Shown here one piece after another: positions 9,091 through 25,929 of a DNA stretch of 34,947 bases. The position numbers and the translations under genes were made by a program. The DNA is from Chloroflexota bacterium (GTDB lineage Bacteria > Chloroflexota > Anaerolineae > Anaerolineales > Villigracilaceae). The stretch is from positions 1 through 34,947 of the forward strand of contig JAPLGS010000109.1 in assembly GCA_026390015.1 (NCBI GenBank). The letters are read 5' to 3'. The notes below the pieces were generated by a model. That model was not told the origin of the DNA and did not search any database. It worked only from the letters and a program-made list of their open reading frames with translations. Position 1 is the stretch's first letter. The number at the start of each line of letters is the position of its first letter.

Positions 9091-9122
9091 TTTATTTTAT
9101 TAGAAGTAGAAGGATAGGAATT

Positions 9123-9662
9123 ATGCAAACGGTCAAAATGGTAGTCACAGGTCCATTTAGCGCTGGTAAGACTCAGTTCATTCAGTCTGTCAGTGAAATC
9201 GATGTTGTTTCCACGGAGCGTAAGATCTCATCCGAAGAGGAACGCTCTGTTAAATCCTCGACGACGGTGGCAATGGATTTTGGCCGCATCACTGTGGACG
9301 AAGACCTGGTACTGTATCTGTTTGGAACACCCGGCCAGAAGCGTTTTGATTTCATGTGGGAAATCCTTTCAGAAGGCATGTTGGGTTTCATCGTAATGGT
9401 GGACAGTACACGTCCTGAAACTTTCCGCGAAGCGCGCTCGATCCTTGAGACTTTCCGCGCGTATGCTCCCACTCCTTTCGTCGTCGCCGCTAACAAGCAG
9501 GATGCAGAGGATGCCTGGGAGCTTGAAGATGTGCGCCACGCATTGCGCCTGGATAGCAAAACAAAGCTTTTGCCCTGTGTCGCAATTGATCGGAATACTG
9601 TAAAAACGGTTCTGCTTGAGTTGCTATACAGCATCCTAAAAGAAATGGATTCCGGGAAATAA
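9123..9662 (+). CDS. Small Ras/Arf-like GTPase (COG2229 type, MglA-related)
   Basis: A 179-residue single-domain GTPase. P-loop G10-PFSAGKT17; switch region with the conserved Thr in SSTTVAMDFG; G3 as LFGTPGQKRF (G68-TPGQ72) with the usual WDTAGQ replaced by FGTPGQ, as is typical of this prokaryotic Arf-like group; G4 NKQD (124-127); G5 CVAID. It should act as a GTP/GDP molecular switch in the cytoplasm. Relatives in this group pair with PATAN and roadblock proteins and control polarity or gliding (MglA) or unknown processes. AAGGATAGGA precedes the ATG. It is the second gene of the operon, between the PATAN gene and an alpha/beta hydrolase. No GAP (MglB/roadblock) gene is seen in the window. 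Confidence 0.9.
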   Translation: MQTVKMVVTGPFSAGKTQFIQSVSEIDVVSTERKISSEEERSVKSSTTVAMDFGRITVDEDLVLYLFGTPGQKRFDFMWEILSEGMLGFIVMVDSTRPETFREARSILETFRAYAPTPFVVAANKQDAEDAWELEDVRHALRLDSKTKLLPCVAIDRNTVKTVLLELLYSILKEMDSGK

Positions 9663-9683
9663 AGCGCGGGAAGACAATTTGCT

Positions 9684-10475: not shown

Positions 10476-11095
10476 GCGCAGAATCTTTCTTCTATCCACA
10501 AAAAATGGGGCGGATCATTTTTCTCAGTATGGAGGAGGTGATGGGTTCGCATGGAGTGGACGCAATTCTTCTTCTGGCTTCTTTGGAAAAATTTGTTCAA
10601 AATTATCCGCCTGATGCGAAAGTACGCGACTTCCCTTTTGAAACAGTCAGCCTTTTGCAAAGCACTCTGGAAAAGGCTTATGGCCCGCGCGGCGGGCGCG
10701 GACTCGCTTTGCGCGTGGGGCGCGCCTGTTTCAAGTATGGCCTCAAAGAATACGGGTCGATGCTTGGGTTGACTGAAATGGCATTCCGTTTGCTTTCAAT
10801 GCCAACGAAATTAAGCGCCGGCGCAAGATCTTTTGCCGGTCTTTTTAACAAATATACCGATCAAAAAGTGCAGGTGGAAGAAAAAGAGAATAAGATATTC
10901 TGGCACATTGAGCGTTGTCCGCTGTGCTGGGGGCGGACAGCCGATGAACCGATCTGTCATCTAGCGGTGGGATTGTTACAGGAATCTTTATATTGGCTGA
11001 GCGGGGGAAAAGTGTTCGATGTAAAAGAGACGACCTGCATCGCTCAGGGTGATGCGACTTGCACGATCGCGATAGATACAACCCCATTTTCATAG
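10472..11095 (+). CDS. V4R (4-vinyl reductase) domain protein
   Basis: A 207-residue protein. It begins with a helical region (GVDAILLLASLEKFVQNYPP) and ends in a V4R domain from about residue 65. The conserved cysteines of V4R are present in CPLCWGR, then EPICHLAVGLL, then TTCIAQGDATC. V4R domains bind small hydrophobic ligands or tetrapyrrole-like compounds and occur as sensors in XylR/DmpR-type regulators and in bacteriochlorophyll 4-vinyl reductase. Nothing here points to photosynthesis, so a ligand-sensing role in the cluster is likelier. It starts within the stop of the hydrolase gene (4-nt overlap), so the two are translationally coupled. Confidence 0.82.
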   Translation: MSAESFFYPQKMGRIIFLSMEEVMGSHGVDAILLLASLEKFVQNYPPDAKVRDFPFETVSLLQSTLEKAYGPRGGRGLALRVGRACFKYGLKEYGSMLGLTEMAFRLLSMPTKLSAGARSFAGLFNKYTDQKVQVEEKENKIFWHIERCPLCWGRTADEPICHLAVGLLQESLYWLSGGKVFDVKETTCIAQGDATCTIAIDTTPFS

Positions 11096-11150
11096 CCAGA
11101 GCAAACCCAATTCAGCGTGTTGGGTGGGTGTTTTATCACATACTTTGATT

Positions 11151-11163
11151 TATAATTCCATTC
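11151..11163 (+). promoter_or_regulatory. -10 box (TATAAT) of a probable leaderless promoter
   Basis: TATAAT (11151-11156) followed by exactly 7 nt (TCCATTC) and the ATG at 11164, with no Shine-Dalgarno. The same spacing is seen at 1936 and 29094 on the other strand. The -35 region is weak. Confidence 0.5.
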
Positions 11164-12441
11164 ATGCTTAAGATCATCCTACACGCGCAGAATCCAATCA
11201 TGCCTTTTTGCGAAACAGCACGTGACCTGCGGATTCAAAATTCGCCGCTCTGGCTGCATCAGCGCAATTTGCTCGCGCCATATGCCACCCGTGAAATGGA
11301 ATTGAAGCAAGGCGAGCGTATGCAGCCCGTACGGGAACCGACCATTGTATACCGCGACAATCTTTTTTTTGACGAATTCTATATCAACGCCTTCATGGAG
11401 GAAGCTGTCAAACACAACAAACCTGCGCGCGCGGCTTTCCGATCCACTGACACCGCCTTCCGTGAACATGCTTTGCCGCTTTCCACATCGTATACTCCCG
11501 CGGGCAGTTTATATCTGGCCGACTTATGGTATTACCCCAACGGCCCAACCGCAGGCGTTGAGCCGCTCGTCATAGACATGCAGGCGCGCGAGATCGGTTA
11601 TTATCACGTGCCGACCTACATGGGAGATCAAAGCGGCGACCTTGTTTTTCAAGTGCCATTGCGTGCCATGCTGGCCATTGATTCATGGGTGCATGTTTTT
11701 ATTGCGGATATGGTTTTCGGCCAATTTGCACGCGGGGCGCGTTTTGAAAAACGTTTGAAGGAAGATGTCGGTTTCAAAATAAGAATTCTCGGCAAAGCCA
11801 TTTATGAAGGACGGCAGGTTCTTGAATCTTCTGAATTGGTGAAAGTGGGCAAAGGCTGTGTCATCGACCCGAGCGCCATTATTCATGGGCCTGCGATCAT
11901 TGGCGACAACGTCACCATCAACGCGGGCTCGGTGATCGAAAATAGTATTATTGGCAACAATGTAAATATTTCGCAGGATGTTCAAGTAATGCTTTCGGTC
12001 GTGGGGGATGGCGCCTTCCTGCCCTTCCGTTCCGCGTTGTTCATGACAACGCTTATGGAAAATAGTATGTTGGCGCAAAACACCTGCCTGCAAATGTGCG
12101 TGATCGGCAGGAATACTTTCATCGGCGCTGGCTCCACATGGACAGATTACAACCTGATCCCCACCCCCATCCGCGCCCGAGATGGAAACGGCAAATTGAG
12201 TTTATCAAACCGACCAGTGCTGGGCGGCTGTGTGGGACATAACTGCCGCATTGGTTCCGGCATGATCGTTTATCCCGCGCGCACCATCGAATCAGATGTT
12301 GTGCTGGCGGCATCCAACACACGGCGTGTCATTGACCGCGATATTTCGTTTGCAGAAAGCGACCATCATCATCTTAAATTGGCTCACTTACACCAGACCC
12401 CCTATCACAAAGATTTGAAAGACAAGGTTGAGTCATGGTAA
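11164..12441 (+). CDS. Left-handed beta-helix (hexapeptide repeat) protein, GlmU/GlgC-like C-terminal half
   Basis: A 425-residue protein. From about residue 230 there are hexapeptide repeats that form a left-handed beta-helix: GKGCVIDPSAIIHGPAIIGD, then NVTINAGSVIENSIIGNNV, later VIGRNTFIGAG and GGCVGHNCRIGSGMIVYP. Such helices occur in acyltransferases and in the C-terminal part of sugar nucleotidyltransferases. The N-terminal 200 residues resemble a degenerate nucleotidyltransferase position in the gene, but I see no pyrophosphorylase signature, so activity is uncertain. The catalytic His of acetyltransferases is not obvious. It probably starts a new transcript (TATAAT 7 nt before the ATG). 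Its stop lies 4 nt before a small ORF. Confidence 0.75.
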   Translation: MLKIILHAQNPIMPFCETARDLRIQNSPLWLHQRNLLAPYATREMELKQGERMQPVREPTIVYRDNLFFDEFYINAFMEEAVKHNKPARAAFRSTDTAFREHALPLSTSYTPAGSLYLADLWYYPNGPTAGVEPLVIDMQAREIGYYHVPTYMGDQSGDLVFQVPLRAMLAIDSWVHVFIADMVFGQFARGARFEKRLKEDVGFKIRILGKAIYEGRQVLESSELVKVGKGCVIDPSAIIHGPAIIGDNVTINAGSVIENSIIGNNVNISQDVQVMLSVVGDGAFLPFRSALFMTTLMENSMLAQNTCLQMCVIGRNTFIGAGSTWTDYNLIPTPIRARDGNGKLSLSNRPVLGGCVGHNCRIGSGMIVYPARTIESDVVLAASNTRRVIDRDISFAESDHHHLKLAHLHQTPYHKDLKDKVESW

Positions 12442-12445
12442 AAAA

Positions 12446-12637
12446 ATGGATAACTTCGCCATCATCATTCACCCCCCTCAACCGCCGGAATATTTACAAG
12501 AGGGTAGTGAGGTCTGCGATGCGGCGCATCCCCGTGATGTTTTTGCAATGGTAGCGGCGGTGAGAGATGATATAGTAGTGATTGACTGCAGAATGCTGGA
12601 AGTGCCCGGCGCTGTAGGTTTTGAGTTAAAGATATGA
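12446..12637 (+). CDS. Small hypothetical protein (63 aa)
   Basis: An ORF of 63 residues starting with MDNFAIIIHPPQPPEYLQEG. It begins 4 nt after the stop of the beta-helix gene and ends in an ATGA overlap with another tiny ORF. It has acidic and hydrophobic strands (VFAMVAAVRDDIVVIDCRML) and no transmembrane segment. I do not recognise it. An upstream in-frame TTG at 12428 would overlap the previous gene by 14 nt and seems less likely. The tight packing in a plus-strand operon is the main evidence that it is real. Confidence 0.5.
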   Translation: MDNFAIIIHPPQPPEYLQEGSEVCDAAHPRDVFAMVAAVRDDIVVIDCRMLEVPGAVGFELKI

Positions 12638-12744
12638 CTACGATCATTGATAGTCATGGCTTTCGCTCTTTTGAATGTGAAGTAAAAAACGAACAGATCG
12701 AAGCCGTTAAACAAAATGCCCGCATAAACGCGCAGCACGGCTAG
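12634..12744 (+). CDS. Very small hypothetical protein (36 aa)
   Basis: An ATG at 12634 overlaps the stop of the 63-residue ORF (ATGA) and opens a 36-residue frame, MTTIIDSHGFRSFECEVKNE onward, ending in QHG at the TAG 12742-12744. The Shine-Dalgarno AGGAGG of the receiver-GGDEF gene directly follows. It is predicted to be soluble and charged. Coupling and fit into the gap support it; no homology is known to me. Confidence 0.4.
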   Translation: MTTIIDSHGFRSFECEVKNEQIEAVKQNARINAQHG

Positions 12745-12755
12745 AGGAGGCTTAT

Positions 12756-13652
12756 ATGGGACTTGCTCGTCTTTTGGTAGTGGAAGATGATATGGATATC
12801 GCCAATATGCTCAAGATATATTTCACGGGCATGCAATATGACGTGGATGTAGCGCATCGCGGTCGTGACGCTTTGGAAAAGGTCAAGCACGTTCTGCCGC
12901 ACTTGATCGTATTGGATATTATGCTGCCGGATATTGATGGTTACGAAGTCTGCCGTAATTTGCGGACGAGCACCCGCACCAGCCATATCCCCGTAATATT
13001 CCTGACTCAAAAAGATGAACGCAGCGATAGATTGCAGGGTCTTGAACTCGGCGCGGATGATTACATCACCAAACCCTTTGATATCGAAGAGTTGAAGCTG
13101 CGTGTGCAGGGTGCCATCCGACGTTCAGAGCGTGAGAGTCTCACTGACCCGCGTTCAGGCTTGCCCGCCGGGCGTTTGATCGAAGAGCAGCTACGCCGCA
13201 TCATCCGCCAGTCAGATTGGGCACTGCTCGATATCCGCCTGAATAATTTTGAACCGTTTAAAGATGTGTATGGTTTTGTAGCAGGCGACGACGTAGTGCG
13301 TTTTGCGTCTATGGTGCTCGGTGAAGTAGTGGATGAGCTTGGTACCACAAATGATTTTATCGGTCACGCTGGCGGCGATAACTTCATCATCATCACAACA
13401 AATGAGGCCGCTCCGAAAATTCGACGGAAATTAAAGGAGCGTTTTGCAGCCGAGATACAATCTCACTATAACTTTATAGATCGTCAGCAGGGATTTATTC
13501 AAGCGCCAACAACTGACGGCCGTTTTGAAAAAGTATCGTTTATGACCTTTTCAGCCGGATTGATTTCGCCGACATCACATTCCTTTGCAGATATTCGCGA
13601 GATCACAGAGCTTGCAGCTGAAGCGCGGCGTCAGGACGCGGCGGCCGTTTAA
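12756..13652 (+). CDS. Response regulator with receiver and degenerate GGDEF domain
   Basis: A 298-residue protein. The receiver (1-125) has the acidic pair E10-D11-D12, phospho-acceptor Asp54 (IVLDIMLP), Thr in IFLTQK and Lys in YITKPF. The second half is a GGDEF-fold domain whose signature reads GGDNF (206-210) in place of GGDEF, and no RxxD inhibitory site precedes it. The metal- and catalysis-related Glu is therefore missing, and it is probably not an active diguanylate cyclase; it may bind GTP or c-di-GMP or act as a protein-interaction domain. A strong AGGAGG lies before the ATG. It lies 17 nt upstream of the giant sensor kinase, its probable phosphodonor. Confidence 0.9.
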   Translation: MGLARLLVVEDDMDIANMLKIYFTGMQYDVDVAHRGRDALEKVKHVLPHLIVLDIMLPDIDGYEVCRNLRTSTRTSHIPVIFLTQKDERSDRLQGLELGADDYITKPFDIEELKLRVQGAIRRSERESLTDPRSGLPAGRLIEEQLRRIIRQSDWALLDIRLNNFEPFKDVYGFVAGDDVVRFASMVLGEVVDELGTTNDFIGHAGGDNFIIITTNEAAPKIRRKLKERFAAEIQSHYNFIDRQQGFIQAPTTDGRFEKVSFMTFSAGLISPTSHSFADIREITELAAEARRQDAAAV

Positions 13653-13669
13653 TAAGGTACTCTTTTCCC

Positions 13670-16600
13670 ATGTCTTCCGGGTTCGGCATTAGCCTGTTGA
13701 TTGCTGGGCTGGTATTTGTTTTACTAGCCTGGATCATGTTGCGTGTTTTTCCACGCTCACAAGCGGCCGCGCAGGTTGATTCTGGCACGTTGGCATTCCC
13801 CGAAACTACGCAATCAAATCAAGCAGTGATGATCCTCCAGCCGGGCGGGCGGGTGGAATATATCAGCGCGCGGGCCCGTTCATATTTTAATCTGCGCGAG
13901 AATGAACCTTATGATCTGGAGCGGCTTGCGCGGCGAGTTCGCCCAACCAGTGATTTTCTTGACCTGTGCGCTTCGCCTGGTTATAGCCGTGTTTCCATTG
14001 ACGGAAAGCTGGTGGAAATAGCGTCTTTTGAAGTACCGGGCGTATATCCGATGATGCTGGTTTCCTTTCGTGGGAAAGAATTGGTTTCAGCGTTGGAGCC
14101 GGGCAATGACGCTTCGGTGGAATTCCTGCGGGTGGTGACAGAGTTTAGCCGGGGCATTGCCGCCAGCCTTGACCTTGAAACCACCATACGGTCGGTATTA
14201 GATAACATCAGCCGTCTTATGCCATCGGATATGCTTGAGTTGAAACTGTGGAATACCGACCCCCAGGTTCTGACTCAATATCGTTATCAACAACCAGATC
14301 AAGGCCCCAGCCGTGTGATCATCGCTTCATTCTCGCAATTTGGAAGTCTGATGGATCGATTGATCGCGGGCCGCGAACCGATCCTGCTTACAAACGCGCG
14401 TTCCCAACCCGAGCTTGCAAATAATGGAGAACTGCTTCCCGTTCAATCGTATCTGGGAATTCCCCTCATCGCGGGTGGTGAAATGGTTGGAACGCTGGAG
14501 GCAGGTCAAATTGGCGGCGGGGCATTTGGTCAGCATGACCTTGAACTATTATCTTTGGTTTCTGCTCCGGTTGCTGTTGCGATACGCAATGCGAAACTAT
14601 ATGAAGAGGAGCAAAAACGTGGAGCAGAACTCGCCGGCCTGGCGAACCTGAATCAGGTACTTGGTTCTGTGCATGGTACTCAGGATATTTTTTCGCGGCT
14701 TGTTGAGAGCGTGTCTCCTTTGTTTTCTGTGGAGCTGATTGGCTTCCTGCTCTATGATGAAGAGAAATATACACTTGAAGCCAAGATCCCATTTCGTGGA
14801 ATGCCTGATCATATTGTGGAGATCTTTCGCGCCAATATTCCCCCGTACAGTCCAGCCGAACAGGTAATCTCAAGCCAGCAGCCCATCGTTACACTGAATG
14901 CTGCTGAGGATGTGAATTGGCAAACGCTTGGCCTATCTGATATTGCGACTGCGGCCAGTTTGCGAGATATCGCGCTAATTCCTTTGATATCTTCAGGGCG
15001 AATGCTTGGCTACCTGCAGGTGGGGCATCACACAAACGGCGCAGCCTCTTTCAGTATTGATGAAACTCGTTTAATGAATATCGTGGCGAATCAGGCCGCG
15101 GCGATCATTGAAAATGTTTTACTGGTACAGCAGGCGCGCACACGTGCCCAGCGGTCTGATGCCTTGCGGCGCATCGCCGGCCTTTCAGGCTCTTCGGCCG
15201 CGCTTGAAGATATCCTTAAATACTCAGTGCAGGAATTGGCGAATCTTTTTATGGCAGATGCAGGCGCGATCTTTTTGTTGGACGAGTCGCGGGGTGAACT
15301 GCGCCTGCGCCGCGAGTCTACATTTGGCATTTCGGAAGAGGTCAGCAGCGCATTCATCCAGATATTTGTAGACGACTCAAATTATATGTTTACAGTATCT
15401 GGCAGCCAGAGCCCGTTCTTATCTGGAAATCTCAGCGCTGATAGAAAGCTTCTGCCAGTTTATCTTCCACTAATTGAAACCCTTCAAGTCGAATCTGCGA
15501 TGATCGTTCCTTTGGTTGTGCGCGAGCATAGTATCGGCGAGTTGATGTTGGGTAGTTTTAGTGAAGATCATTTTAATTCTTTTGATCTTCAGATCGCATT
15601 TACCGCGGCCGGTTATTTGGCTACGGCTGTCGAATCTGCCAGCCTGCTGGCGCAGACCGATGACTCTCTGCGCCGCCGTGTGGAGCAGCTCTCTGCGATC
15701 ACGCGGGTTAGCAGGGAACTGGGCGCATCGCTCGACCTTCAGCATTTGCTCGAGGTCATTCATGACGAAGGCTTGCTCGCAATACAGGCAGATTGCTCAT
15801 CCATTGTTTTGTTCGAGCTGAATAGTGATTGGTCTAATCCAAAGATCGAATTATTTTTTGGTTGTGAAGACGGGCGCGAAGTATCTGCTCTCGAGAAAAT
15901 GGTTCTAAAAAAAGGCGAGCTGCATATCGTCAGTGATTTTATGGAAGAGAATATTGCTCCTCCGCATGATAGAGTGCGCTCTGCGGTGATTGCGCCGATC
16001 ACCCATCAGACGCAAATGATCGGGTTGCTGAACCTGCATTCCACCCAGCCGGGTTTCTTTACTGCAGATCTGGTTGATTTGATCCAAACGCTGACAGTGC
16101 AAGCCGGTATCGCCTTAAGCAATGCCCAGCGGTATCAAACTGAAAAGCAGCGCGGCGAAATACTGCGCCGTCGTTCTGAGACTCTTGTGCGTCTCGCAGA
16201 TGTGAGCTACGGCGTTAATAACGAACAACCGTTGGAACAGGCTTTGCAACTTATCGCCCAAGGTATCCACGATTCAACCCCTTTCCATGTGGTGTTGATC
16301 AGTATTAAAGAGGCAGAGTTGGGGCTCTTGCGCCGCATTACCGCGGTGGGTATTCCGCAAGAAACGCTCAATGAACTATTTGCCCGCAAGCAACCCCTTG
16401 CAAGTGTTCTGCAGATCATGAAACCGGAGTTTAAGATCAGCCGCTCCTACTTCATCCCCGCTGACCAATCTCCGGTGGTTCCTGCGGATGTGCATATGGT
16501 TACGCTGGATGTTTCTTCCACGTTCGCGGTAAAACTTCCCGATGCATGGGATCCGGACGATATTCTGCTTGTTCCCCTTGAAGATGCGAATGGGCAAATT

Positions 16601-19600
16601 GTCGGTCTTATCAGTTTGGATAACCCTGAAAATGGTTTGCGCCCGGATAAGGCAGCCATCGAATCAGTGGAGGTCTTTGCCGCTCAAGCCGCATTGTTGA
16701 TCGGTTCCACAATACGTCAGAATGAACTGCATGGGCGCATCGATTCTCTTTCTGCCGGTTTACAGCGCCAGCAAAAGCTGCTTGATATCACCCAAAATGA
16801 TCTTCCTGTACTTCTCCATAAAGATCTTGAGCAAACCATTTCACTGCATAATCTGGATCGACGTGCTCAACGTGTGCGGGCCGGCCTTGCCATTACAGAA
16901 TCTGTCAGCCGCCAGCTGGACGCTTCATCTGCATTATATGCGCTGGGCCGCGAGACACTGACTCAATTAGGAATGTCTATCGCGCTGGTGGCGGAGAATA
17001 CTGTGGATGGTCCGCGTCTTTTGCATATCCTTGGAAGTTTGCCGCGTTCTACAAATGTAGAGGCGTTATTTGGTCAACGTAATCCACTGCGCGCATGTTT
17101 GCAAAATGGCATCCCCATTCTGATCTCCAACCTTGAGGAGGATGAAGAATGGCGCGACGCTTCTCTGCTGATTACGCTGCGCGCCAAAGGTGCGATCTGC
17201 CTGCCGATATCCATTGACAATAAGCCGGTCGCGGCCATGCTTGCAGTCAGCCCGGAAGCGATGACAGCTTTTACCGATGAAGACCATAAAGTCTATTTAC
17301 AGATATCCCGCCAAACATCTCTGATCCTGCAAAATATTTCCCTTTTGAATCAGACTCGCCGCCGCCTTGAAGAGGTGAACCTGTTACTCGACTTTAGCCG
17401 CCAGCTTTCAGGAATGGAGCCGGACGAAGTCATTAGGTCATTGCTTCACAGTTCCCGTCGTGTGCTCCCGCATGCCCATGCCGGAGCGGTGCTGATCTGG
17501 AATCCAAGAACTGAAACACTCAACCCGCGCGTAGTTTCAGGATATGCCGATAATGAAAGCATGCTGAATATTAAATATCGCTGGGGCGAAGCTCTGCCCG
17601 GAATTGTCTTTGCCAGTAAGTTCGCCCGCCGCGTAGATGAGATCAACTTCGCGCGTGATTACACTTTGAGCGCGGAAAATCTTGCGCTATATCGCCAGTC
17701 TACTGGCGGCCGTTTGCCGGTTTCCTGTCTACTTATTCCCATCATCACCAATGATCAAGCCTTGGGCTTGCTTGTTCTGGATAATTTCAACACAACCTCC
17801 GCCTTCCGCCTTGAAGATGAAGTCCTCCTGCTTTCACTTTCACAGCAGATCGCGCTCTCACTTGACAACCTTCGGCTTGTGCAAGACACACAAGAACGAG
17901 CCGGGCAATTGCAAGCCTTGAATAATGCCGCCGCCTCGCTCACCTCCAGTTTGCGAAGCGACCAATTAATTAATTCATTGCTTGATCAATTAAACCCTGT
18001 TGTGCCGTATGACACAGCCACGCTCTGGTTACGTGAAAAAGATCGACTATCAGTTGCTTCTGCGCGCGGCTTTTCAGATTTTGAGCAGAGGCTTGGCCTG
18101 TCCGTCTCAGTTTCAGATAGCGCGCTTTTCAAAGAAATGGCAAGAACCGGCCAGCCTATTTTTGTCAAAGATGTTCGCGAAGATTCACGCTTTATGCCCG
18201 TGGAAGCTCCCCGTCTTTCATGGCTTGGAATTCCATTGATCTCCAAAGGCGAATTGATTGGCGCACTTGCAGTTGAAAAATGGCAGGCACATTTTTATAC
18301 GCGCGAACAAGTTCAAGTTGCGCTGACTTTCGCCAGCCAATCGGCTGTTTCATTGGATAACGCCCGCTTATATGAAGACAGCGTCAGCCGCGCCACTGAA
18401 TTGGATCAACGATCACAGCGCCTCACCACGATCAATCGCTTCACAACTGCTTTAACCGGGCTGCTGGATACAGATCAAATCTTGAGTTTGACCGCCGATG
18501 AATTGCTCAATGGGTTGGATGTGAAACGCGTTTCCATCGTAACCTTTGAACGGGGTCAGGCGTACTGGAAGATAACCGCCCCTCGAATGCGGCTCAAATT
18601 TCCGCGCTTATTACCAGATGCGCCCATCTTCTCCCGTTTGCGCGAATCACTTGGCATTTTTAATACTGAGAATGTTCAAAGCGAACCAGACCTTGCACCA
18701 CTCTTAGAAATGATTGGCGAGAATACCTCGGCCTTGCTGATTGTGCCGCTTGCCACCGGACAAAATCTTAATGGACTTGTCTTTGCCCAGACCATTGGCG
18801 AGGCGCGTTTCGGTTCGAACGAACTTGAAATAGCGCGCACTATTACTAATCAGGCGACCATCACGCTTGAAAATGCGCGCTTGTATCAATCTACTGTTCG
18901 AACAGCGGAGCGCTTCTCCACGCTTAACGAGACCAGTTCCCAGGTCAGCGCAAGCCTCGACCCGGATGAAATTTATGCCGCAGTTCACAAGGCGGCTGAG
19001 CGTCTCATGCCTATGGAATCTCTTGTGATCACGCTCCTCGATCAGGAGAAAAACGAGATCGAACCAGTTTATTTATTTGACCTTGGAGAACGCATTCAAG
19101 GAGCGCGCGTTCCGTTTGGAAAAGGGATCAGCAGTCAGGTCATTACGAGCGGCAAACCCATTTTGATCTCATCCCTTGAACAAGCCAATCAAATGGATAC
19201 GGTGCAGACCGGCCAGGGAGACGATACCCAGTCTATTGTGGCGGTGCCGATGATCCTTGGAGGCAAGGCGCTTGGCATGCTCTCTGTACAAAGTTATCAG
19301 TCTGATGTGTATTCCGAGGAAGATATGCAAATCCTTGGCACGCTTGCCAATCAGGCTATTGTCGCCATTCAAAATGGGCGTCTCTTTGCAGAAACCCAGA
19401 ACCTTGCCGCCAAATTGGAAATGCGCGTGATCGAGCGTACTTCGCAATTACAGCGCGAACAACACAACACAGAAACCCTGCTTCATATTCTTACGGAGGT
19501 TTCATCCAGCCTCGATCTCGACCGCGCGCTTAATCGTACATTGTCATTACTAAACGATGCCATTGGCGCAGAACAAGGTACTATTTTGCTCTTGAATGTG

Positions 19601-21088
19601 GAAGACGGCCTTTTGCACTATCGCGCCGGGTATGGATATCTTTCTGAACAATCCAGCATCAATAGCCGTGATATTGGTTTAAAAGTTGGAGAGGGTCTTG
19701 CTGGGTCAGTTGTGCAGCATCGTGAAGCATTACTGATTCCCAACCTGCAACTGGACACGCGATGGACGCAAAATGAAGCAACCGGTCAGGATCAGCGCAG
19801 CGCAATTGCAGTGCCCATGCTGGTTGCTGAAGATGTGATCGGTGTGCTGATGGTATTCCAGCGTGCTGAGGGCTTCTTTAGCCCTGAAATGCTTGTTCTT
19901 GTCAAAGCCATCGCGGCGCAGGTGGCGGTAGCGATCAATAACGCACACCTTTATGAATTGATCCGCGATCAAGCTGAACGCCTGGGCGTGATGCTGCGCA
20001 AAGAGCAGGAAGATGCCAGCCGTTCACAGGCCATCCTCGAAGCCGTGGCGGATGGAGTACTGGTTACCGGGGCTGATAATCGCATCACCTTTGTCAACTC
20101 ATCCACGCAACGCATCATCGCTGTGGATGAAACCCACCTGCTCGGCAACCCGTTGGATGCCTTTGGCGGCATGTTCGGAAAAGCTGCAAGTACATGGATG
20201 CAAACAATTCGACATTGGTCCATGCACCCGGCTTCATATCACCCGGGTGATACCTACGCCGAACAACTCGAATTGGAAAATGGACGTATTGCGCTCGTCC
20301 ATCTTGCGCCTGTCATCTTTCAAAATGATTTCCTCGGAACCGTATCCATCTTCCGTGATATTACGCATGAAGTTGAAGTTGACCGCTTGAAATCTGAATT
20401 CGTTGCCACGGTCAGCCATGAATTACGCACACCCATGACGGCCATTAAAGGCTATGTGGATATTCTCGCCATGGGCGCGGCTGGCGCATTGAATGAAAAC
20501 CAATTGCACTTCCTGGATGTTGTCCGTAATAACATAGATCGGCTCAACACCCTCGTGGGTGACTTGCTCGACATCTCCCGCATCGAAGCCGGACGCGTCT
20601 CACTTAACCTTCAATCGATTAACCTGTACGAGATCGCTGAAGAAGTGGTTGCAGATGTTCTCCGCCGCTCGCAAAGTGAACATAAGATAATGGCACTCTC
20701 GCTGGATGTGCCAGACAAGAAATTACCGACAGTCATTGGTGACAGCGAACGTGTCAGGCAGATCGTCGGCAACCTTGTGGACAATGCCTTTAATTACACA
20801 CCTGACAATGGAACCATCCGAGTCAATATCCACCAGGAAAATGGTGAACTTCAGGTGGATATTCAGGATAATGGAGTTGGAATTTCACCTGAAGATCAGG
20901 CGCGTATCTTTGAACGTTTCTTCCGCGGCGAACATTCTCTAGTTTTGGCAACGCCCGGAACAGGGCTTGGCCTTCCGATTGTCCGCCAATTGGTTGAAAT
21001 GCATAATGGCCGAATTTGGATGAGCAGTACAGGCGTAGCCGGTGAGGGCAGTACATTCTCTTTCACTCTGCCGATCAATAAAAAATAA
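13670..21088 (+). CDS. Giant multi-GAF/PAS sensor histidine kinase (2472 aa)
   Basis: A 2472-residue sensor kinase. One N-terminal transmembrane helix (about 6-26), then a PAS-like segment (about 50-140). About eleven consecutive GAF-like domains follow, starting near residues 152, 322, 489, 665, 832, 1074, 1233, 1413, 1585, 1749 and 1932. Each begins with the signalling-helix pattern (for example LNQVLGS or LNETSSQVSASLD) and ends with an IALxNARLYE-type helix. A coiled coil lies near 1028-1070 and another after 1890. A PAS domain (about 2118-2235) leads into HisKA with His2250 (VSHELRTPMTAIKGY) and a HATPase with N-box DNAFNYTPDNG, G1 DNGVGIS and G2 GTGLGLPIV. No periplasmic domain is present, so inputs are cytosolic. 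Receivers flank it at 12756 and 21099 with gaps of 17 and 10 nt. Confidence 0.95.
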   Translation: MSSGFGISLLIAGLVFVLLAWIMLRVFPRSQAAAQVDSGTLAFPETTQSNQAVMILQPGGRVEYISARARSYFNLRENEPYDLERLARRVRPTSDFLDLCASPGYSRVSIDGKLVEIASFEVPGVYPMMLVSFRGKELVSALEPGNDASVEFLRVVTEFSRGIAASLDLETTIRSVLDNISRLMPSDMLELKLWNTDPQVLTQYRYQQPDQGPSRVIIASFSQFGSLMDRLIAGREPILLTNARSQPELANNGELLPVQSYLGIPLIAGGEMVGTLEAGQIGGGAFGQHDLELLSLVSAPVAVAIRNAKLYEEEQKRGAELAGLANLNQVLGSVHGTQDIFSRLVESVSPLFSVELIGFLLYDEEKYTLEAKIPFRGMPDHIVEIFRANIPPYSPAEQVISSQQPIVTLNAAEDVNWQTLGLSDIATAASLRDIALIPLISSGRMLGYLQVGHHTNGAASFSIDETRLMNIVANQAAAIIENVLLVQQARTRAQRSDALRRIAGLSGSSAALEDILKYSVQELANLFMADAGAIFLLDESRGELRLRRESTFGISEEVSSAFIQIFVDDSNYMFTVSGSQSPFLSGNLSADRKLLPVYLPLIETLQVESAMIVPLVVREHSIGELMLGSFSEDHFNSFDLQIAFTAAGYLATAVESASLLAQTDDSLRRRVEQLSAITRVSRELGASLDLQHLLEVIHDEGLLAIQADCSSIVLFELNSDWSNPKIELFFGCEDGREVSALEKMVLKKGELHIVSDFMEENIAPPHDRVRSAVIAPITHQTQMIGLLNLHSTQPGFFTADLVDLIQTLTVQAGIALSNAQRYQTEKQRGEILRRRSETLVRLADVSYGVNNEQPLEQALQLIAQGIHDSTPFHVVLISIKEAELGLLRRITAVGIPQETLNELFARKQPLASVLQIMKPEFKISRSYFIPADQSPVVPADVHMVTLDVSSTFAVKLPDAWDPDDILLVPLEDANGQIVGLISLDNPENGLRPDKAAIESVEVFAAQAALLIGSTIRQNELHGRIDSLSAGLQRQQKLLDITQNDLPVLLHKDLEQTISLHNLDRRAQRVRAGLAITESVSRQLDASSALYALGRETLTQLGMSIALVAENTVDGPRLLHILGSLPRSTNVEALFGQRNPLRACLQNGIPILISNLEEDEEWRDASLLITLRAKGAICLPISIDNKPVAAMLAVSPEAMTAFTDEDHKVYLQISRQTSLILQNISLLNQTRRRLEEVNLLLDFSRQLSGMEPDEVIRSLLHSSRRVLPHAHAGAVLIWNPRTETLNPRVVSGYADNESMLNIKYRWGEALPGIVFASKFARRVDEINFARDYTLSAENLALYRQSTGGRLPVSCLLIPIITNDQALGLLVLDNFNTTSAFRLEDEVLLLSLSQQIALSLDNLRLVQDTQERAGQLQALNNAAASLTSSLRSDQLINSLLDQLNPVVPYDTATLWLREKDRLSVASARGFSDFEQRLGLSVSVSDSALFKEMARTGQPIFVKDVREDSRFMPVEAPRLSWLGIPLISKGELIGALAVEKWQAHFYTREQVQVALTFASQSAVSLDNARLYEDSVSRATELDQRSQRLTTINRFTTALTGLLDTDQILSLTADELLNGLDVKRVSIVTFERGQAYWKITAPRMRLKFPRLLPDAPIFSRLRESLGIFNTENVQSEPDLAPLLEMIGENTSALLIVPLATGQNLNGLVFAQTIGEARFGSNELEIARTITNQATITLENARLYQSTVRTAERFSTLNETSSQVSASLDPDEIYAAVHKAAERLMPMESLVITLLDQEKNEIEPVYLFDLGERIQGARVPFGKGISSQVITSGKPILISSLEQANQMDTVQTGQGDDTQSIVAVPMILGGKALGMLSVQSYQSDVYSEEDMQILGTLANQAIVAIQNGRLFAETQNLAAKLEMRVIERTSQLQREQHNTETLLHILTEVSSSLDLDRALNRTLSLLNDAIGAEQGTILLLNVEDGLLHYRAGYGYLSEQSSINSRDIGLKVGEGLAGSVVQHREALLIPNLQLDTRWTQNEATGQDQRSAIAVPMLVAEDVIGVLMVFQRAEGFFSPEMLVLVKAIAAQVAVAINNAHLYELIRDQAERLGVMLRKEQEDASRSQAILEAVADGVLVTGADNRITFVNSSTQRIIAVDETHLLGNPLDAFGGMFGKAASTWMQTIRHWSMHPASYHPGDTYAEQLELENGRIALVHLAPVIFQNDFLGTVSIFRDITHEVEVDRLKSEFVATVSHELRTPMTAIKGYVDILAMGAAGALNENQLHFLDVVRNNIDRLNTLVGDLLDISRIEAGRVSLNLQSINLYEIAEEVVADVLRRSQSEHKIMALSLDVPDKKLPTVIGDSERVRQIVGNLVDNAFNYTPDNGTIRVNIHQENGELQVDIQDNGVGISPEDQARIFERFFRGEHSLVLATPGTGLGLPIVRQLVEMHNGRIWMSSTGVAGEGSTFSFTLPINKK

Positions 21089-21098: not shown

Positions 21099-21473
21099 AT
21101 GGCAAGAATATTAATCGCAGAAGATGAACCAGATATTCGAGAACTTATAGCTTTTACCTTGCGATTCGCAGGGCACGAAGTTACCGCTACTCCTAATGGT
21201 GAGGAAGCAGTGAGACAGGCATCACTCGTCAACCCTGATATCATCCTCATGGATGTGCGTATGCCGCGCATGACGGGTTATGAAGCCTGTCGCCTGATGA
21301 AAGCGGATCCGGCCCTCAAAGATATTCCAGTTGTATTCCTCTCAGCCAAAGGCCAGGATTCTGAAATTCAAACTGGCTTGGATGCGGGCGCCGAAGAATA
21401 CCTGCTCAAACCCTTTGCCCCCGATCAACTTACTCAACGTATCAAAGCCATCCTCGCAAAATTTGGAAAATAG
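21099..21473 (+). CDS. Stand-alone response-regulator receiver
   Basis: A 124-residue single receiver domain. The acidic pocket is E8-D9, the phospho-acceptor is Asp52 (IILMDVRMPRMTGYE), with Ser82 (VFLSAKG) and Lys104 (YLLKPF). It has no output domain, so it acts by binding partners or relays phosphate. It starts 10 nt after the giant kinase (TGGAG ahead of the ATG) and is followed after 6 nt by the second alpha/beta hydrolase, so co-transcription is very likely. The sister receiver with a GGDNF domain lies on the other side of the kinase. Confidence 0.92.
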   Translation: MARILIAEDEPDIRELIAFTLRFAGHEVTATPNGEEAVRQASLVNPDIILMDVRMPRMTGYEACRLMKADPALKDIPVVFLSAKGQDSEIQTGLDAGAEEYLLKPFAPDQLTQRIKAILAKFGK

Positions 21474-21479: not shown

Positions 21480-22268
21480 ATGAGCGCGATCATTCTAGAC
21501 GGTTCGATAGTGCATTATGAAGCCTTGGGACGCGGCCGTCCCATTGTCTTTCTGCACGGCTGGGTCGGTTCGTGGCGCTACTGGATCAACGCCATGCAGA
21601 TCGCATCCACATCGTTCCGCGCCTACGCCATAGACCTCTTCGGCTTTGGCGATACCACGCGCGACCCAATGCGCTATTCCATTGACCACCAGGCAAATAT
21701 GCTAAATCACTTCCTCGAAGAAATGGGAATTGGCAAAGTGGCACTGGTTGGGCACGACCTTGGCGCGCTAGTTGGTTTTTCATTTATCAAACAATGGCCT
21801 AAAAGCGTTGACCGAATTATGGCGATCAACTGTCCGCTTGAGTATGGCGCGATCCATACTCGCCTGCAAACTGCTTCGATGGCGGAGCTTGTGGAGTGGC
21901 TGGCCGCGCGCACTCCCGAATCTGCATCAGCCCTTTCAGACGCATCAAAAACGGACCCGAAAGCTGTTTCTGCTTCGATGGCAGGTCTCGAATCAAATAC
22001 TTATTTAGCCGATATCCGCAACCTTGGCGTGCCCGGTTTGCTGGTCTATGGCTCCAACGACCCCGCCATCGACATGCCCTCGCAAGAAAAGATCAACGCT
22101 CTTCCAAACCACATGCACAACATCAATCTTGAAAACACAGGCCATTTCCCCATGATAGATAATCCCAATCAATTCAACCGATTGATGACAGATTTTCTCG
22201 CGCTCGACTCAGGCGCAAGTCCGCGTGAACTGCAAATGAAAGAGGAATGGAAACGCAGGGTCCGCTAA
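21480..22268 (+). CDS. Alpha/beta hydrolase with Asp nucleophile (dehalogenase/epoxide-hydrolase type elbow)
   Basis: A 262-residue alpha/beta hydrolase. The oxyanion region is HGWVGSWR, and the nucleophile elbow is GHDLGA with Asp93 where its paralogue at 9684 has Ser93. The acid is probably the Asp in YGSNDPAID, and His222 is in TGHFPMIDNP. An Asp nucleophile is found in haloalkane and fluoroacetate dehalogenases and in epoxide hydrolases, which work through an alkyl-enzyme ester, so this copy may have a different chemistry. The N-terminal 90 residues of the two paralogues align without gaps by eye. It is the last gene of the cluster, and its stop is 47 nt ahead of the promoter of the thiamine operon. 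A long charged tail (PRELQMKEEWKRRVR) is extra. Confidence 0.88.
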   Translation: MSAIILDGSIVHYEALGRGRPIVFLHGWVGSWRYWINAMQIASTSFRAYAIDLFGFGDTTRDPMRYSIDHQANMLNHFLEEMGIGKVALVGHDLGALVGFSFIKQWPKSVDRIMAINCPLEYGAIHTRLQTASMAELVEWLAARTPESASALSDASKTDPKAVSASMAGLESNTYLADIRNLGVPGLLVYGSNDPAIDMPSQEKINALPNHMHNINLENTGHFPMIDNPNQFNRLMTDFLALDSGASPRELQMKEEWKRRVR

Positions 22269-22504: not shown

Positions 22505-23161
22505 ATGCCGCGTGTTGTTATCTTTGCAAATGGTCTTTTACCCAATTTGGAAACCGTCCGCAATATTTTACGCCCCGATGATTTCTTAATAGGCGCAGAT
22601 GGGGGCGCACGCCTCATCATGGCGCTTGGCTTATTACCCAACTTCGTGATCGGCGACCTTGATTCGTTAACAGAAGATGATCTCTACGACCTTGGCAGCG
22701 CAGATGTCAGAGTCGATCAATATCCAGCAAACAAAGATGAGACAGATCTTGAACTCGCCATTCAATATGCGCTTCAGTTGAGTCCAAGTTCCATTATTAT
22801 CGTTGCCGCATTGGGCGGGCGCATGGACCAAACCCTGGGCAACATCTCCCTGCTGACTGATCTGCTCATGTCGAATATTGACATCCGACTTGATGATGGG
22901 GTCGAGGAAATTTTCTTTTGCCGCGATCAGGCTCAGGTTCACGGAAAAAGCACCGACATCGTCTCGCTCATTCCGTGGAATGGAGATGTCAGCGGCATCG
23001 TCACAACCGGCTTGAAGTGGCCCTTGCGCAGCGAGACTCTTTTCTCATACAAAACACGCGGCCTCAGCAACGAGATGATCAATGAAACTGCAACCGTTCA
23101 GATCAAATCGGGTCTGCTTCTTATTGTTCATCGCCGCGCTGATAAATTACTGGAGTCTTAA
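22505..23161 (+). CDS. thiN: Thiamine pyrophosphokinase
   Basis: A 218-residue enzyme that moves pyrophosphate from ATP to thiamine to make TPP. Family motifs are visible in order: ANGLLPNLE, GADGGARL, VIGDLDSL, the NKDETDLELA catalytic acidic segment, GGRMDQTLGNI, and the C-terminal beta domain ending with TRGLSNEM. Length matches the THI80/ThiN family. AAGGAG lies before the ATG. It is the first gene after the TPP riboswitch and overlaps the next ATG by 1 nt (TAATG). With the importer that follows it makes a simple salvage route for external thiamine. Confidence 0.95.
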   Translation: MPRVVIFANGLLPNLETVRNILRPDDFLIGADGGARLIMALGLLPNFVIGDLDSLTEDDLYDLGSADVRVDQYPANKDETDLELAIQYALQLSPSSIIIVAALGGRMDQTLGNISLLTDLLMSNIDIRLDDGVEEIFFCRDQAQVHGKSTDIVSLIPWNGDVSGIVTTGLKWPLRSETLFSYKTRGLSNEMINETATVQIKSGLLLIVHRRADKLLES

Positions 23162-24222
23162 TGAAAAAAATATTTAATCCCCCGCTTTCTGTTTTCTGCA
23201 TTTTGTTTTTCTTCAGCCTTCTGGTTTCTGGTTGCGCCTCAACACCGACCGCGCCTCAGACCATCACCATCCTTACCCACGACTCTTTTGCCATCGGTGA
23301 AGAAGTTATCAAATCTTTTGAAGCAGACAACAACGCTAAAGTTTTGTTCCTCCAAAGCGGTGACGCGGGCGCAGTGCTCAATCAAGCCATCCTCACGAAA
23401 AATGCCCCGCTCGCCGATATCCTCTTCGGCGTGGATAACACGTTCCTTTCCCGCGCATTGGATGCTGATATTTTTGAAGCCTACCCTTCGCCTGTGTTGA
23501 GTGTTATCGCTGACGAATTCAAACTCGATCCGTCCAACCGCGCACTGCCTGTCGATTATGGCGATGTTTGCATCAACTACGATAAAAAATATTTCGCTGA
23601 TAAAGGTTTGGAAATACCTCAATCGCTTGAGGATTTGAAAAAACCTGACTATAAAGGTTTGCTTGTTGTTGAGAACCCCGCAACATCATCCGCAGGGCTC
23701 GCCTTCCTGCTGGTTACCCGCGCGCATTTTGGGGATCGTTATCTTAATTATTGGAAGAGTCTAAAAGAGAATGGCGTGGTGGTGGTGGATGGCTGGGAAA
23801 CCGCCTATTACACCAACTTTAGCGGCTCCTCGGGGCGCGGCCCGCAGCCAATGGTTGTTTCGTATGGCTCATCCCCTGTTGCGGAGGTTGTTTTTTCAGA
23901 TACTCCGCCTATAAACGGTCCGACTGCATCCATTGTTGAGGTGGGCACCTGCTTCCGCCAGATCGAATTTGTTGGCATCCTGAAAGGAACTCAGAACCGC
24001 GCTCTTGCAGAAAAATTTGTTGACTTTATGTTAAGCAAACAGTTTCAAGAGGATATGCCGTTGCAGATGTTTGTTTACCCGCTGAATCAAAATGCAGTAA
24101 TGCCCGAAGCCTTTATTAAATATGCGCAATTTCCCGATGAACCGGCCGTGATCTCTCCTGACGAGATTTCCGCCAATCGCGACGCATGGATCGAAGCGTG
24201 GACTTCGGTGATGATGAAGTAG
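23161..24222 (+). CDS. thiB: Thiamine ABC transporter substrate-binding lipoprotein
   Basis: A 353-residue extracytoplasmic solute-binding lipoprotein (lipobox VSGC, Cys25). It matches the ThiB/TbpA group: ILTHDSFAIGEEVIKSFE near the start, then APLADILFGVDNTFLSRAL, and in the second half YWKSLKENGVVVVDGWETAY and PMVVSYGSSPVAEVVF. The ThiB-like signature HDSF with ADxLFGVDN and the upstream TPP riboswitch make thiamine the likely ligand; iron-binding relatives look similar but lack this context. The start overlaps the pyrophosphokinase stop. Confidence 0.9.
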   Translation: MKKIFNPPLSVFCILFFFSLLVSGCASTPTAPQTITILTHDSFAIGEEVIKSFEADNNAKVLFLQSGDAGAVLNQAILTKNAPLADILFGVDNTFLSRALDADIFEAYPSPVLSVIADEFKLDPSNRALPVDYGDVCINYDKKYFADKGLEIPQSLEDLKKPDYKGLLVVENPATSSAGLAFLLVTRAHFGDRYLNYWKSLKENGVVVVDGWETAYYTNFSGSSGRGPQPMVVSYGSSPVAEVVFSDTPPINGPTASIVEVGTCFRQIEFVGILKGTQNRALAEKFVDFMLSKQFQEDMPLQMFVYPLNQNAVMPEAFIKYAQFPDEPAVISPDEISANRDAWIEAWTSVMMK

Positions 24223-24230
24223 ACAGGTAT

Positions 24231-25928
24231 ATGCAAAATAATATAAATTTGAACCACGAAAGCACTCAGACGCTGAGAAAAAAAAATCTCCGTGCCTTTG
24301 TGTCTCCGTGGTTTTATCGTGTTTTACTCTGGCTCGCCCCCATTCTATTTCTGCTTACGTATTTCTTTCTTCCCCTTTCTAAAATTCTCATCCTCGCTTT
24401 CAATATCTCCGCTCTCACTAAAACAAATTTCCAATTAATTTTAACCACATTAAGTTTCACCTTTTATCAAGCCGCTCTCTCTACGGTATTAACCTTCATC
24501 CTTGGCATTCCCTCTGCAATCCTATTTTCCCGTTTCAACTTTCGCGGCAAATCATTGCTGCGCGCATTGACCGCTGTGCCCTTCATGCTGCCCACCGTTG
24601 TCGTCGCCTCAAGTTTCAACGCGCTATTCGGCGATCACGGATTATTTTCTTCATCCATAATCCCTCATCCTTCATCCTTTTCCCTCATCCTTTCCGCTCA
24701 CGTTTTCTACAACACCACCATCGTCATTCGTATCGTAGGCAACGCCCTTTCACGCCTTGATCCAAAACTGGAGCAATCCGCGCGCTCCCTCGGCGCGGAC
24801 ACATTCCACGTTTGGAAAAATATAACCCTGCCATTGCTTCGTCCATCTTTACTCGCCGCGGCGCTGCTGGTCTTCATGTTTGACTTCACTAGTTTCGGCG
24901 TCATTCTTTTATTGGGCGGATCAAACTTCGCGACGCTCGAAGTGGAAATTTATCTGCGCGTGCTTAAACTTCCAAATCTGCCGCTCGCCGCGCTGCTTTC
25001 CATTGTTCAACTTATTTTCACGCTTATCTTTTCGATCCTCTACACGCGCACTATCAGCCAGGTCACCACCCAAACTGCTCCGCGCTTTTCAACCTCGCAT
25101 GCGCCAAAAAACATCAACGAAAAAATCTTTGTTTTTACTGTTTTCTGTTTACTGTTAACTTTTTTCCTTCTGCCTTTACTCTCCCTCCCGATCCGCTCCC
25201 TGACCCGCCTTGAAGCAGATCGTGGTCAACGCGGAGAAGTTCAATATGGATTCACAACTGATTACTATAAAGAACTTTTCGTCAATCGGCGCGGATCATT
25301 ATTTTATGTCCCGCCGATCCAAGCCGCCGCCAACTCACTGGGCTATGCTTCGCTCACAGTGATCCTTTCACTCGCGCTCGGATATCCCGCCGCGTACGCG
25401 CTCGCCAAACCAACCCGCCTTGAAAAATTTCTCGACCCGCTCATCATGTTGCCGCTTGGCGCATCGGCTGTTATGCTCGGGTTGGGATTCATTATTTCCT
25501 TCGGGCGTTCGCTCGCTTCGCCGTGGTTCGTTCCCATCGCGCATACACTTGTCGCACTGCCGTTTGTGATTCGCACCCTACAGCCCGCGCTGGCATCCAT
25601 CCCCGAGCGGCTGCGTCAAGCCGCGTCCACTTTGGGCGCGTCGCCTTTTCGCGTTTGGCAGACCGTTGATTTTCCAATTCTTTCACGCGCCACGCTCAGC
25701 GCCGCCACTTTTGCATTCACGGTTTCTCTCGGCGAATTTGGCGCGACCCTTCTGCTGACCCGCCCCGAATACCCAACCATCCCGATCGCCATTCAACGTT
25801 TTCTTTCCCAGCCTGGCGGGCTCAACTTCGGTCAGGCGATGGCGATGGCGACTCTGCTTATGCTGCTCACCACGTTTGCGATTCTGATCATCGAAAAACT
25901 GCGCCTGCCCAATTCGGGAGAATTCTAA
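24231..25928 (+). CDS. thiP: Thiamine ABC transporter permease (two fused domains)
   Basis: An inner-membrane permease of 565 residues with two copies of the binding-protein-dependent transport domain. Each has an EAA-type loop: ARSLGADTFHVWKNITLPLL in the first half and ASTLGASPFRVWQTVDFPIL in the second. About 12 membrane helices are expected, as in ThiP. I chose the ATG at 24231 over one at 24186, because the latter lies inside the thiB gene and adds a hydrophilic segment. The coding sequence holds three stretches that look like dispersed genomic repeats: 24253-24313 (just after the start), 24658-24690 and 25126-25160. They encode NHESTQTLRKKNL, HPSSFSLI and VFTVFCLLLTFF. The frame stays open through all three. 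The next gene starts 1 nt after the stop. Confidence 0.9.
   Translation: MQNNINLNHESTQTLRKKNLRAFVSPWFYRVLLWLAPILFLLTYFFLPLSKILILAFNISALTKTNFQLILTTLSFTFYQAALSTVLTFILGIPSAILFSRFNFRGKSLLRALTAVPFMLPTVVVASSFNALFGDHGLFSSSIIPHPSSFSLILSAHVFYNTTIVIRIVGNALSRLDPKLEQSARSLGADTFHVWKNITLPLLRPSLLAAALLVFMFDFTSFGVILLLGGSNFATLEVEIYLRVLKLPNLPLAALLSIVQLIFTLIFSILYTRTISQVTTQTAPRFSTSHAPKNINEKIFVFTVFCLLLTFFLLPLLSLPIRSLTRLEADRGQRGEVQYGFTTDYYKELFVNRRGSLFYVPPIQAAANSLGYASLTVILSLALGYPAAYALAKPTRLEKFLDPLIMLPLGASAVMLGLGFIISFGRSLASPWFVPIAHTLVALPFVIRTLQPALASIPERLRQAASTLGASPFRVWQTVDFPILSRATLSAATFAFTVSLGEFGATLLLTRPEYPTIPIAIQRFLSQPGGLNFGQAMAMATLLMLLTTFAILIIEKLRLPNSGEF
24253..24313. repeat. Imperfect palindromic repeat inside the thiP coding sequence
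   Basis: AACCACGAAAGCACTCAGAC continuing to GAGA at about 24278 is an inverted copy (19 of 27 positions) of TCTCCGTGCCTTTGTGTCTC continuing to GGTT at 24313, with an A-run in the middle. The pattern (CCACGAAGGCACAAAGACAC...GTGTCTTTGTGCCTTCGTGG) is a known style of dispersed palindrome in Chloroflexota and cyanobacteria. Here it is translated as residues of the ThiP N-terminus before the first helix. Confidence 0.7.
24658..24690. repeat. (TTCATCC)n-type dispersed repeat inside thiP
   Basis: CATCC/TTCATCC/CTCATCC units clustered in the coding strand. TTCATCCTTTTCCCT (24671-24685) is the exact reverse complement of AGGGAAAAGGATGAA at 33712-33726 in a gap 9 kb away. Translated as PHPSSFSLI in a loop of the permease. 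Confidence 0.6.
25126..25160. repeat. TTTACTG-type dispersed repeat inside thiP
   Basis: The run TTTTTACTGTTTTCTGTTTA followed by CTGTTAACT shares the exact 12-mer TTTCTGTTTACT (25142-25153) with the intergenic repeat at 33849-33860. Translated as VFTVFCLLLTFF, which forms part of a membrane helix at the junction of the two permease halves. Confidence 0.5.
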
Positions 25929-25929
25929 A

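Follow-up and report, generated by a model that had tools for sequence, protein, structure and literature searches.

Long runs of sensing domains that feed a histidine kinase are known from cyanobacterial multi-GAF hybrid kinases, GAFs among their modules; a protein of this kind from Leptolyngbya JSC-1 has as many as 13 sensing domains and is described as twelve tandem repeated HAMP-GAF, as far as the accessible text of the source goes (PMC9953108). Because such arrays are already in print there, the kind of protein discussed here is not new. Shorter arrays of two tandem sensing domains occur in PDE2A/5A/6, in CyaB2 (1ykd) and in the GAF-PHY part of phytochromes, with cyclase, phosphodiesterase or bilin outputs. 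PleD-type regulators combine a receiver with a GGDEF domain. In actinobacterial conservons (CvnA kinase, CvnB, CvnC and CvnD GTPase) and in MglA systems, genes for kinases or regulators are linked to an MglA-like GTPase, and according to the accessible part of one account conservons couple MglA-type GTPases to kinases, and such GTPases sometimes lie near PATAN genes (PMC4316618).

Here we describe a eleven-GAF histidine kinase and its neighbours in a 34,947-nt window (the whole stretch of DNA analysed, forward strand of contig JAPLGS010000109.1, assembly GCA_026390015.1) from a Chloroflexota bacterium of the Villigracilaceae. The Leptolyngbya protein, as the accessible text describes it, is a hybrid kinase of HAMP and GAF repeats, whereas the window kinase has helical linkers, neither a HAMP nor a receiver domain in the Pfam scan, and an array kept across many genomes. 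Its G6–G7 region and G5 resemble the phosphodiesterases, CyaB2 and phytochromes in fold, but it carries eleven GAFs where these carry two sensing domains. The adjoining regulator shares receiver and GGDEF with the PleD type and differs in its GxDNF signature and single receiver. Kinase and regulator genes lie near an MglA-like GTPase, as in conservons, but the Roadblock gene of the conservons (CvnB), as far as the accessible text defines it, has no counterpart in the window, and the kinase architecture is wholly different. In the open literature (titles and abstract starts of the papers listed, with subscription papers and preprints outside the scope) we found no description of this kinase family, and the only paper pairing Anaerolineae with the GAF domain was a review of nitrate-sensing kinases. 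As far as the literature searched shows, the conserved family with a variable-length array, a non-canonical GGDEF partner and a small GTPase neighbour is new.

Anatomy of the kinase

The kinase frame is uninterrupted over 2472 codons and encodes, from the N terminus to the C terminus, a membrane helix, a weak PAS, eleven GAFs, a PAS, HisKA and HATPase_c (residue numbers in brackets):

13670–21088, + strand: eleven-GAF histidine kinase, 2472 aa (frame, Pfam, HMM)
13670–13759, + strand: single transmembrane helix, about residues 1–30 (hydropathy; hydrophobic N terminus in relatives too)
13793–14089, + strand: weak N-terminal PAS-like domain, about residues 42–140 (PAS_8 in relatives)
14174–14584, + strand: GAF 1 (169–305; HMM built here)
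14678–15112, + strand: GAF 2 (337–481; HMM built here)
15203–15634, + strand: GAF 3 (512–655; HMM built here)
15737–16117, + strand: GAF 4 (690–816), least conserved GAF (HMM, column conservation)
16232–16702, + strand: GAF 5 (855–1011), long-loop GAF, near-universal in the family (PF01590, HMM, model)
16703–16924, + strand: conserved G5–G6 linker, 74 residues (alignment)
16925–17332, + strand: GAF 6 (1086–1221), most conserved GAF (HMM, conservation, model)
17420–17866, + strand: GAF 7 (1251–1399; HMM, model)
17957–18358, + strand: GAF 8 (1430–1563; HMM built here)
18470–18871, + strand: GAF 9 (1601–1734; HMM built here)
18962–19372, + strand: GAF 10 (1765–1901; HMM), a label missing in two relatives of family f2
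19517–19939, + strand: GAF 11 (1950–2090; HMM built here)
20021–20371, + strand: PAS (2118–2234; Pfam)
20390–20593, + strand: HisKA (2241–2308), phosphoacceptor His2250 (Pfam, alignment)
20738–21076, + strand: HATPase_c (2357–2469; Pfam, alignment)

The Pfam scan matched GAF (PF01590) in 11 stretches, GAF_2 in 10, HisKA, HATPase_c and a PAS ahead of the kinase part. All 11 places in the frame exceeded the Pfam cut-off in a genome-wide PF01590 scan, and the GAF HMM built in this analysis recovered the same eleven modules, bearing out the first-pass annotation, which had read about eleven tandem GAFs in a 2472-residue kinase. The GAF fold was checked on models for G5 and the G6–G7 region, and the other eight modules were assigned by profile only. 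Hydropathy gave one strong membrane segment at about residues 1–30, with weaker peaks within G7, G10 and G11; the earlier view of one membrane helix, no periplasmic part and cytosolic sensing thus appears right. That annotation had the GAFs and the helix correct and overlooked both the weak N-terminal PAS and the PAS before HisKA. Its regular domain starts every 150–190 residues do not hold throughout, the measured distances being 164–231 aa, with linkers of 74 aa between G5 and G6 and 48 aa between G10 and G11. The N-terminal PAS matched PAS_8 in 15 of 22 relatives (E ≤ 0.1, best 1.5e-4); the same search at E ≤ 0.1 returned no match for the window's own N-terminal region. His2250, the N-box Asn and the G-box glycines are present in all 61 rows of the kinase alignment, and the catalytic motifs are intact.

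A fixed array in the window's family

Relatives were grouped into the window's own family (f1) and other families of the same order (f2, f3). Of the 26 loci returned by a scan of genome contigs, 25 belong to records that carry a Chloroflexota label (nine of those Anaerolineales); the closest relative, L010, encodes a kinase 97% identical to that of the window. Eleven GAFs were found in each of the 22 full-length rows, window included, which span 2466–2475 aa apart from one of 2508 aa with a longer N-terminal reading; the eleven-GAF frame is therefore not a product of chance or misassembly. Left out of this alignment were an archaeal locus with the kinase part only (L026), two partial loci on two contigs of one MAG (L012 and L021), a divergent locus (L025) and L023, whose orthologous frame (10516–16758) is broken in its assembly into 2080 aa plus flanking pieces. 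L023 was also left out of the tree, L047–L056 took no part in the counts, L016 and L073 are the same contig, and further repeat genomes are possible.

An N-terminal profile matched at least 34 of 400 genomes sampled across the phylum, 25 of them in f1, and no f1 genome stood among the non-matches listed. Open frames of 2469–2507 aa were present in 21 of the 25 f1 matches, the other four having 634–1977. Five weak matches (G332, G353, G418, G461 and G476; E 6e-7 to 2e-10, frames of 371–1028 aa) probably lie outside the kinase family. All counts from genome searches are lower bounds, with at most nine candidates scored per genome in the phylum sample (among the rows listed), seven in the class search with the regulator and 39 in the order search. 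The eleven-GAF array is old and strictly conserved in f1.

Array length across the Anaerolineae

The kinase N terminus matched at least 31 of 298 genomes of the class at E ≤ 1e-5. Ten GAFs were counted in two f2 relatives. Other orders yielded 9 to 14, and nineteen further kinases found downstream of the regulator, one f3 relative with nine among them, had 3 to 12, with four-GAF forms in L087 and L090 for example; outside f1 these counts use an HMM trained on this genome, which may miss divergent copies or split one, as it did with a GAF of L069. The kinase family is class-wide, with arrays counted at 3 to 14 GAFs. The objection that the first-pass annotation had set against its own reading, that such architectures are common in the class, thus largely holds.

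Module order is largely kept, by label, across the 22 kinases compared. The G5 label recurred in 22 of 22 kinases of the first set and 18 of 19 of the second (the exception being the first kinase of L078), and in 21 of 22 of the first set (not in L067) the module ahead of the PAS is G11-like. On a tree of kinase plus regulator (46 rows, the duplicate pair L016/L073 included), the twelve GAF numbers require 22 changes, and all 12 f1 rows have eleven GAFs. The best explanation is that families gained and lost GAFs, which altered array length from one family to the next, and that f1 stayed constant at eleven.

Origin of the eleven modules

The first-pass annotation had judged the regular array consistent with serial internal duplication. 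That every module is a GAF and that the spacing is similar would fit this, and in other orders an additional G2-like module adjoins G2, so single-step tandem duplication may occur. In profile comparisons, however, sister modules shared 16–31% identity where at least 48 columns align, and G5 matched its sisters poorly. In a tree with six orthologues of each, all eleven modules grouped by position (support 89–100, lowest for G10), and the identical eleven recur in every full-length row. Forcing the array into one clade against 63 other GAFs of the genome cost 88.6 log-likelihood units (AU p = 0.0017, under LG+G4 and in a tree with several long branches); these 63 were the GAFs longer than 110 aa from 20 stretches and not every GAF of the genome. 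The best outside GAF outscored the best sister for 11 of 11 modules, a result that shows only that sisters are not closer, because outside GAFs are far more numerous. Low sister identity, grouping by position and the AU rejection together leave recent serial duplication unsupported; profile comparison, trees and scores against other genomic GAFs led us to set it aside, and the array's having arisen in this lineage by recent serial duplication of one GAF is very improbable. The sequence comparisons fit better with GAFs having been drawn from a pool shared within the genome, perhaps with single duplications in addition.

Elsewhere in the genome, which has 85 GAF_2 matches, other multi-GAF proteins include one with seven GAFs (L028) and two with five (L027 and L039). 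On contig C66, at about 139000–164500 (L031, L032), GAF-bearing genes stand in a row in one orientation, apparently a local expansion.

Structure and conservation of single modules

An AlphaFold2 model of residues 838–1424 (G5–G7; mean pLDDT 75.9, pTM 0.37) shows three mixed alpha/beta modules, whose relative placement is not given by the model because the pTM is low. The best matches in a PDB comparison were GAF-bearing proteins, and those given a second look covered only model residues 215–582, that is, G6 and G7; G5 was therefore folded separately. The resulting model (mean pLDDT 82.5, pTM 0.79) matched GAF structures, 3eea with the highest Z of 15.0 (3.6 A over 146 residues). DosS and DosT, heme GAFs that ligate heme through a His in the pocket, were among the matches, a likeness of fold alone that says nothing on function. 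A long low-confidence coil at about model residues 89–119 accounts for the odd core spacing of G5. Structure prediction rules out a reading of G5 as coiled-coil or PAS, and both G5 and G6 model as GAF folds.

Mean column conservation ranges over the GAFs from 0.64 (G4) to 0.89 (G6), with 0.87 for G8 and 0.85 for G11, as compared with 0.93 for HisKA and 0.88 for HATPase. It had been misleading to call the fifth and sixth modules diverged: G6 tops GAF conservation, G5 is near-universal, and neither is decaying.

G4 has just 14 residues identical in all 22 rows, and four of them are C709, C732, H766 and H790. Cys and His thus account for 4 of the 14 identical residues in G4, and the other ten GAFs together have 5 among 424 (Fisher p = 8e-5); the enrichment was spotted post hoc and is a lead only. 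C709, H766 and H790 are also kept in L057, L058 and L094, the relatives checked from other families of the order. C732 is replaced there by Asp, Asp and Glu, and by Asp in the f1 relative L074; beyond the order, conservation is mostly lacking at the four positions. As a lead from the alignment, the Cys/His/His set is a candidate metal, heme or redox site.

Bilin attachment in a GAF domain uses an invariant Cys followed by His, and cNMP-binding GAFs carry the motif NKXnFX3DE. The Pfam scan found no PHY domain in the kinase, and none of its GAFs has a conserved Cys then His, the only Cys invariant in 22 of 22 rows being C709 and C732 (G4) and C1177 (G6). The usual bilin chromophore of GAF domains is therefore unlikely here, and the search for bilin-binding residues proposed earlier yielded nothing of the phytochrome or cyanobacteriochrome type.

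Gaps between GAFs peak at 30–31 residues (187 of the 370 gaps shorter than 80 residues, many of them orthologous). The further lengths of 34, 37–38, 48 and 55–56 might reflect helical turns, but orthologous linkers are not independent. To the eye the linkers seemed strikingly short of indels, but they were not significantly poorer in them than GAFs (1 run in 408 residues versus 17 in 1541; Fisher p = 0.15).

A conserved cassette around the kinase

The kinase lies between two response regulators, with further recurrent genes on either side:

8284–9090, + strand: DUF4388 protein adjoining the GTPase (relatives' loci)
9123–9662, + strand: MglA-like small GTPase of the Ras superfamily, lying upstream of the cassette (phmmer, relatives' loci)
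12756–13652, + strand: response regulator, receiver plus non-canonical GGDEF, GGDNF for GG[D/E]EF (Pfam Response_reg, GGDEF)
21099–21473, + strand: receiver-only response regulator, single domain (Pfam; kept downstream in relatives)
21480–22268, + strand: alpha/beta hydrolase, a common next gene (Pfam; relatives' loci)

The usual order of the cassette is GxDNF regulator, kinase, receiver-only regulator. All 44 regulator rows carry GxDNF and none the GG[D/E]EF signature of diguanylate cyclases, which makes such activity of the regulator doubtful. The GxDNF regulator stands upstream of the kinase in 43 of 45 loci, the two others (L012 and L068) having less than 1 kb there. The receiver-only regulator lies downstream in 44 of 45, L021 ending inside the gene and L068 having it after a second kinase. 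The association also held among 20 loci fetched by the regulator (L092, whose contig ends, not counted): all 19 with room downstream have a GAF kinase, starting 0.8–2.4 kb from the regulator's start, and the receiver-only regulator is present in 16 of these 19, in three cases behind additional GAF kinases. Across the class, the regulator was found in at least 123 of 298 genomes (E ≤ 1e-50); weaker ones may be paralogues. No DNA-binding domain is seen in either cassette regulator, which makes protein contact the probable route of output.

Between the upstream genes and the regulator, positions 12442–12755 hold fragments of a reductase-like gene, presumably akin to acyl-ACP reductases. No other match to this remnant was found in the genome; similar fragments occur in L010, and L001, L016 and L061 have an open reductase-like frame in the interval from the LbH gene to the regulator. 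On the other side, 22505–27425 encodes a thiamine diphosphokinase and, after it, a thiamine-type ABC transporter and a DUF402 protein; of the 24 loci L001–L024, some of which end early, 17 have the diphosphokinase gene downstream of the cassette.

A small GTPase upstream

The GTPase gene lies about 3 kb upstream of the regulator, beside that for the DUF4388 protein, a domain that we take to be PATAN. We use 'MglA-like' loosely because phmmer matches in the PDB span MglA (3t12, 7e-6; 6hjh, 1.7e-4) and Arf/Rab chains (8oul, 3.6e-7; 6huf, 4.7e-6). Among the matches listed, the GTPase is 40–44% identical to 15 plasmid-borne relatives; most of these come from Streptomyces and Deinococcus, and ATP/GTP-binding protein is their usual annotation. 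No Roadblock/MglB gene was found in the window (contig C42), and the two Robl_LC7 matches in the genome are on C21 and C31. The run at 8284–12441 reads DUF4388, MglA-like GTPase, alpha/beta hydrolase, V4R protein and hexapeptide-repeat protein, and is kept in most of the loci L001–L024 with upstream sequence.

The GTPase is present in all 19 of the loci L001–L024 with enough upstream sequence, and three more distant loci (L059, L069 and L071) still have it upstream. Among 61 genomes of the order, at least 48 have the GTPase, at least 33 the regulator and 13 neither. The GTPase occurs in 33 of 33 regulator-bearing genomes versus 15 of 28 without the regulator (Fisher p = 6e-6, relatedness ignored); in 21 of the 33 the two genes share contig and strand and are no more than 6 kb apart, and in 12 they sit on separate contigs. 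A G5-like module is still present in two of the 15 GTPase-only genomes (G661 and G700). The f2 locus L057 has the cassette and no GTPase within the 7 kb fetched upstream, and the same holds for L025, L060–L067 and L070 in the fetched stretch of about 5–10 kb upstream; in other orders most loci likewise lack the GTPase over the stretch fetched.

Proposed mechanism and alternatives

Histidine kinases of this general family work as dimers that read signals through GAF domains, relay them along helices and transfer phosphate to neighbouring regulators. Applying this knowledge to the anatomy, catalytic motifs, array and cassette observed here, we infer the sensing, relay and phosphotransfer as follows. 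The kinase, presumably dimeric, would be anchored by its N-terminal membrane helix; its GAFs and PAS domains may read cytosolic small molecules or redox state; their combined state would pass via the helical linkers to HisKA/HATPase; and the kinase would then phosphorylate the receivers of the GxDNF regulator and of the receiver-only regulator. The GTPase/DUF4388 unit would be the likeliest partner for a protein contact in this order. A simple parallel relay is not assured, because the accessible part of one review gives the prokaryotic inter-GAF coiled coils known at its time as antiparallel (PMC1592074). We give about an even chance to this reading, in which the membrane-anchored kinase is an integrator of cytosolic signals with phosphotransfer and protein contacts as its means of action.

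The array could instead be mostly a dimerising stalk or spacer, in which only one to three modules (for example G4, G5 or G11) would be ligand-binding and the others would serve to set reach or geometry. For such a stalk speaks that lineages differ in counted array length over the range of 3 to 14 GAFs and mostly keep G5, the G11-like module, PAS and kinase, as does the uneven conservation of the modules between the extremes of G4 and G6; yet G6, G8 and G11 rival HATPase in conservation, which a mere spacer would not need, and module order and number are constant in full-length f1 rows, so that we regard it as unlikely. It is possible, if on balance doubtful, that the kinase is a general stress or metabolic integrator independent of the GTPase, their linkage being neighbourhood inheritance only: L025, L057, L060–L067 and L070 have the cassette with no GTPase in the fetched stretch, and 15 of the 61 genomes of the order have the GTPase and no regulator, but every regulator-bearing genome there holds the GTPase, most of them linked, and distant loci retain it upstream. 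A more sweeping proposal joins these elements into one class-wide system, in which an accordion-like array of 3 to 14 GAFs between conserved end modules would read signals serially and control the MglA-like GTPase via the non-catalytic GGDEF regulator, with the G4 Cys/His/His set as one input; taken as a whole, this seems quite improbable. We keep to the membrane-anchored integrator acting by phosphotransfer and protein contacts.

Significance

The host class is known here mostly from MAGs. The kinase bears on how ligand signals are carried through ten or more serial domains, and one family with the same end modules and partners and 3 to 14 GAFs amounts to a natural experiment in array length. 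The recurrence of the non-canonical GGDEF regulator and, in this order, of the small GTPase points to an undescribed signalling system.
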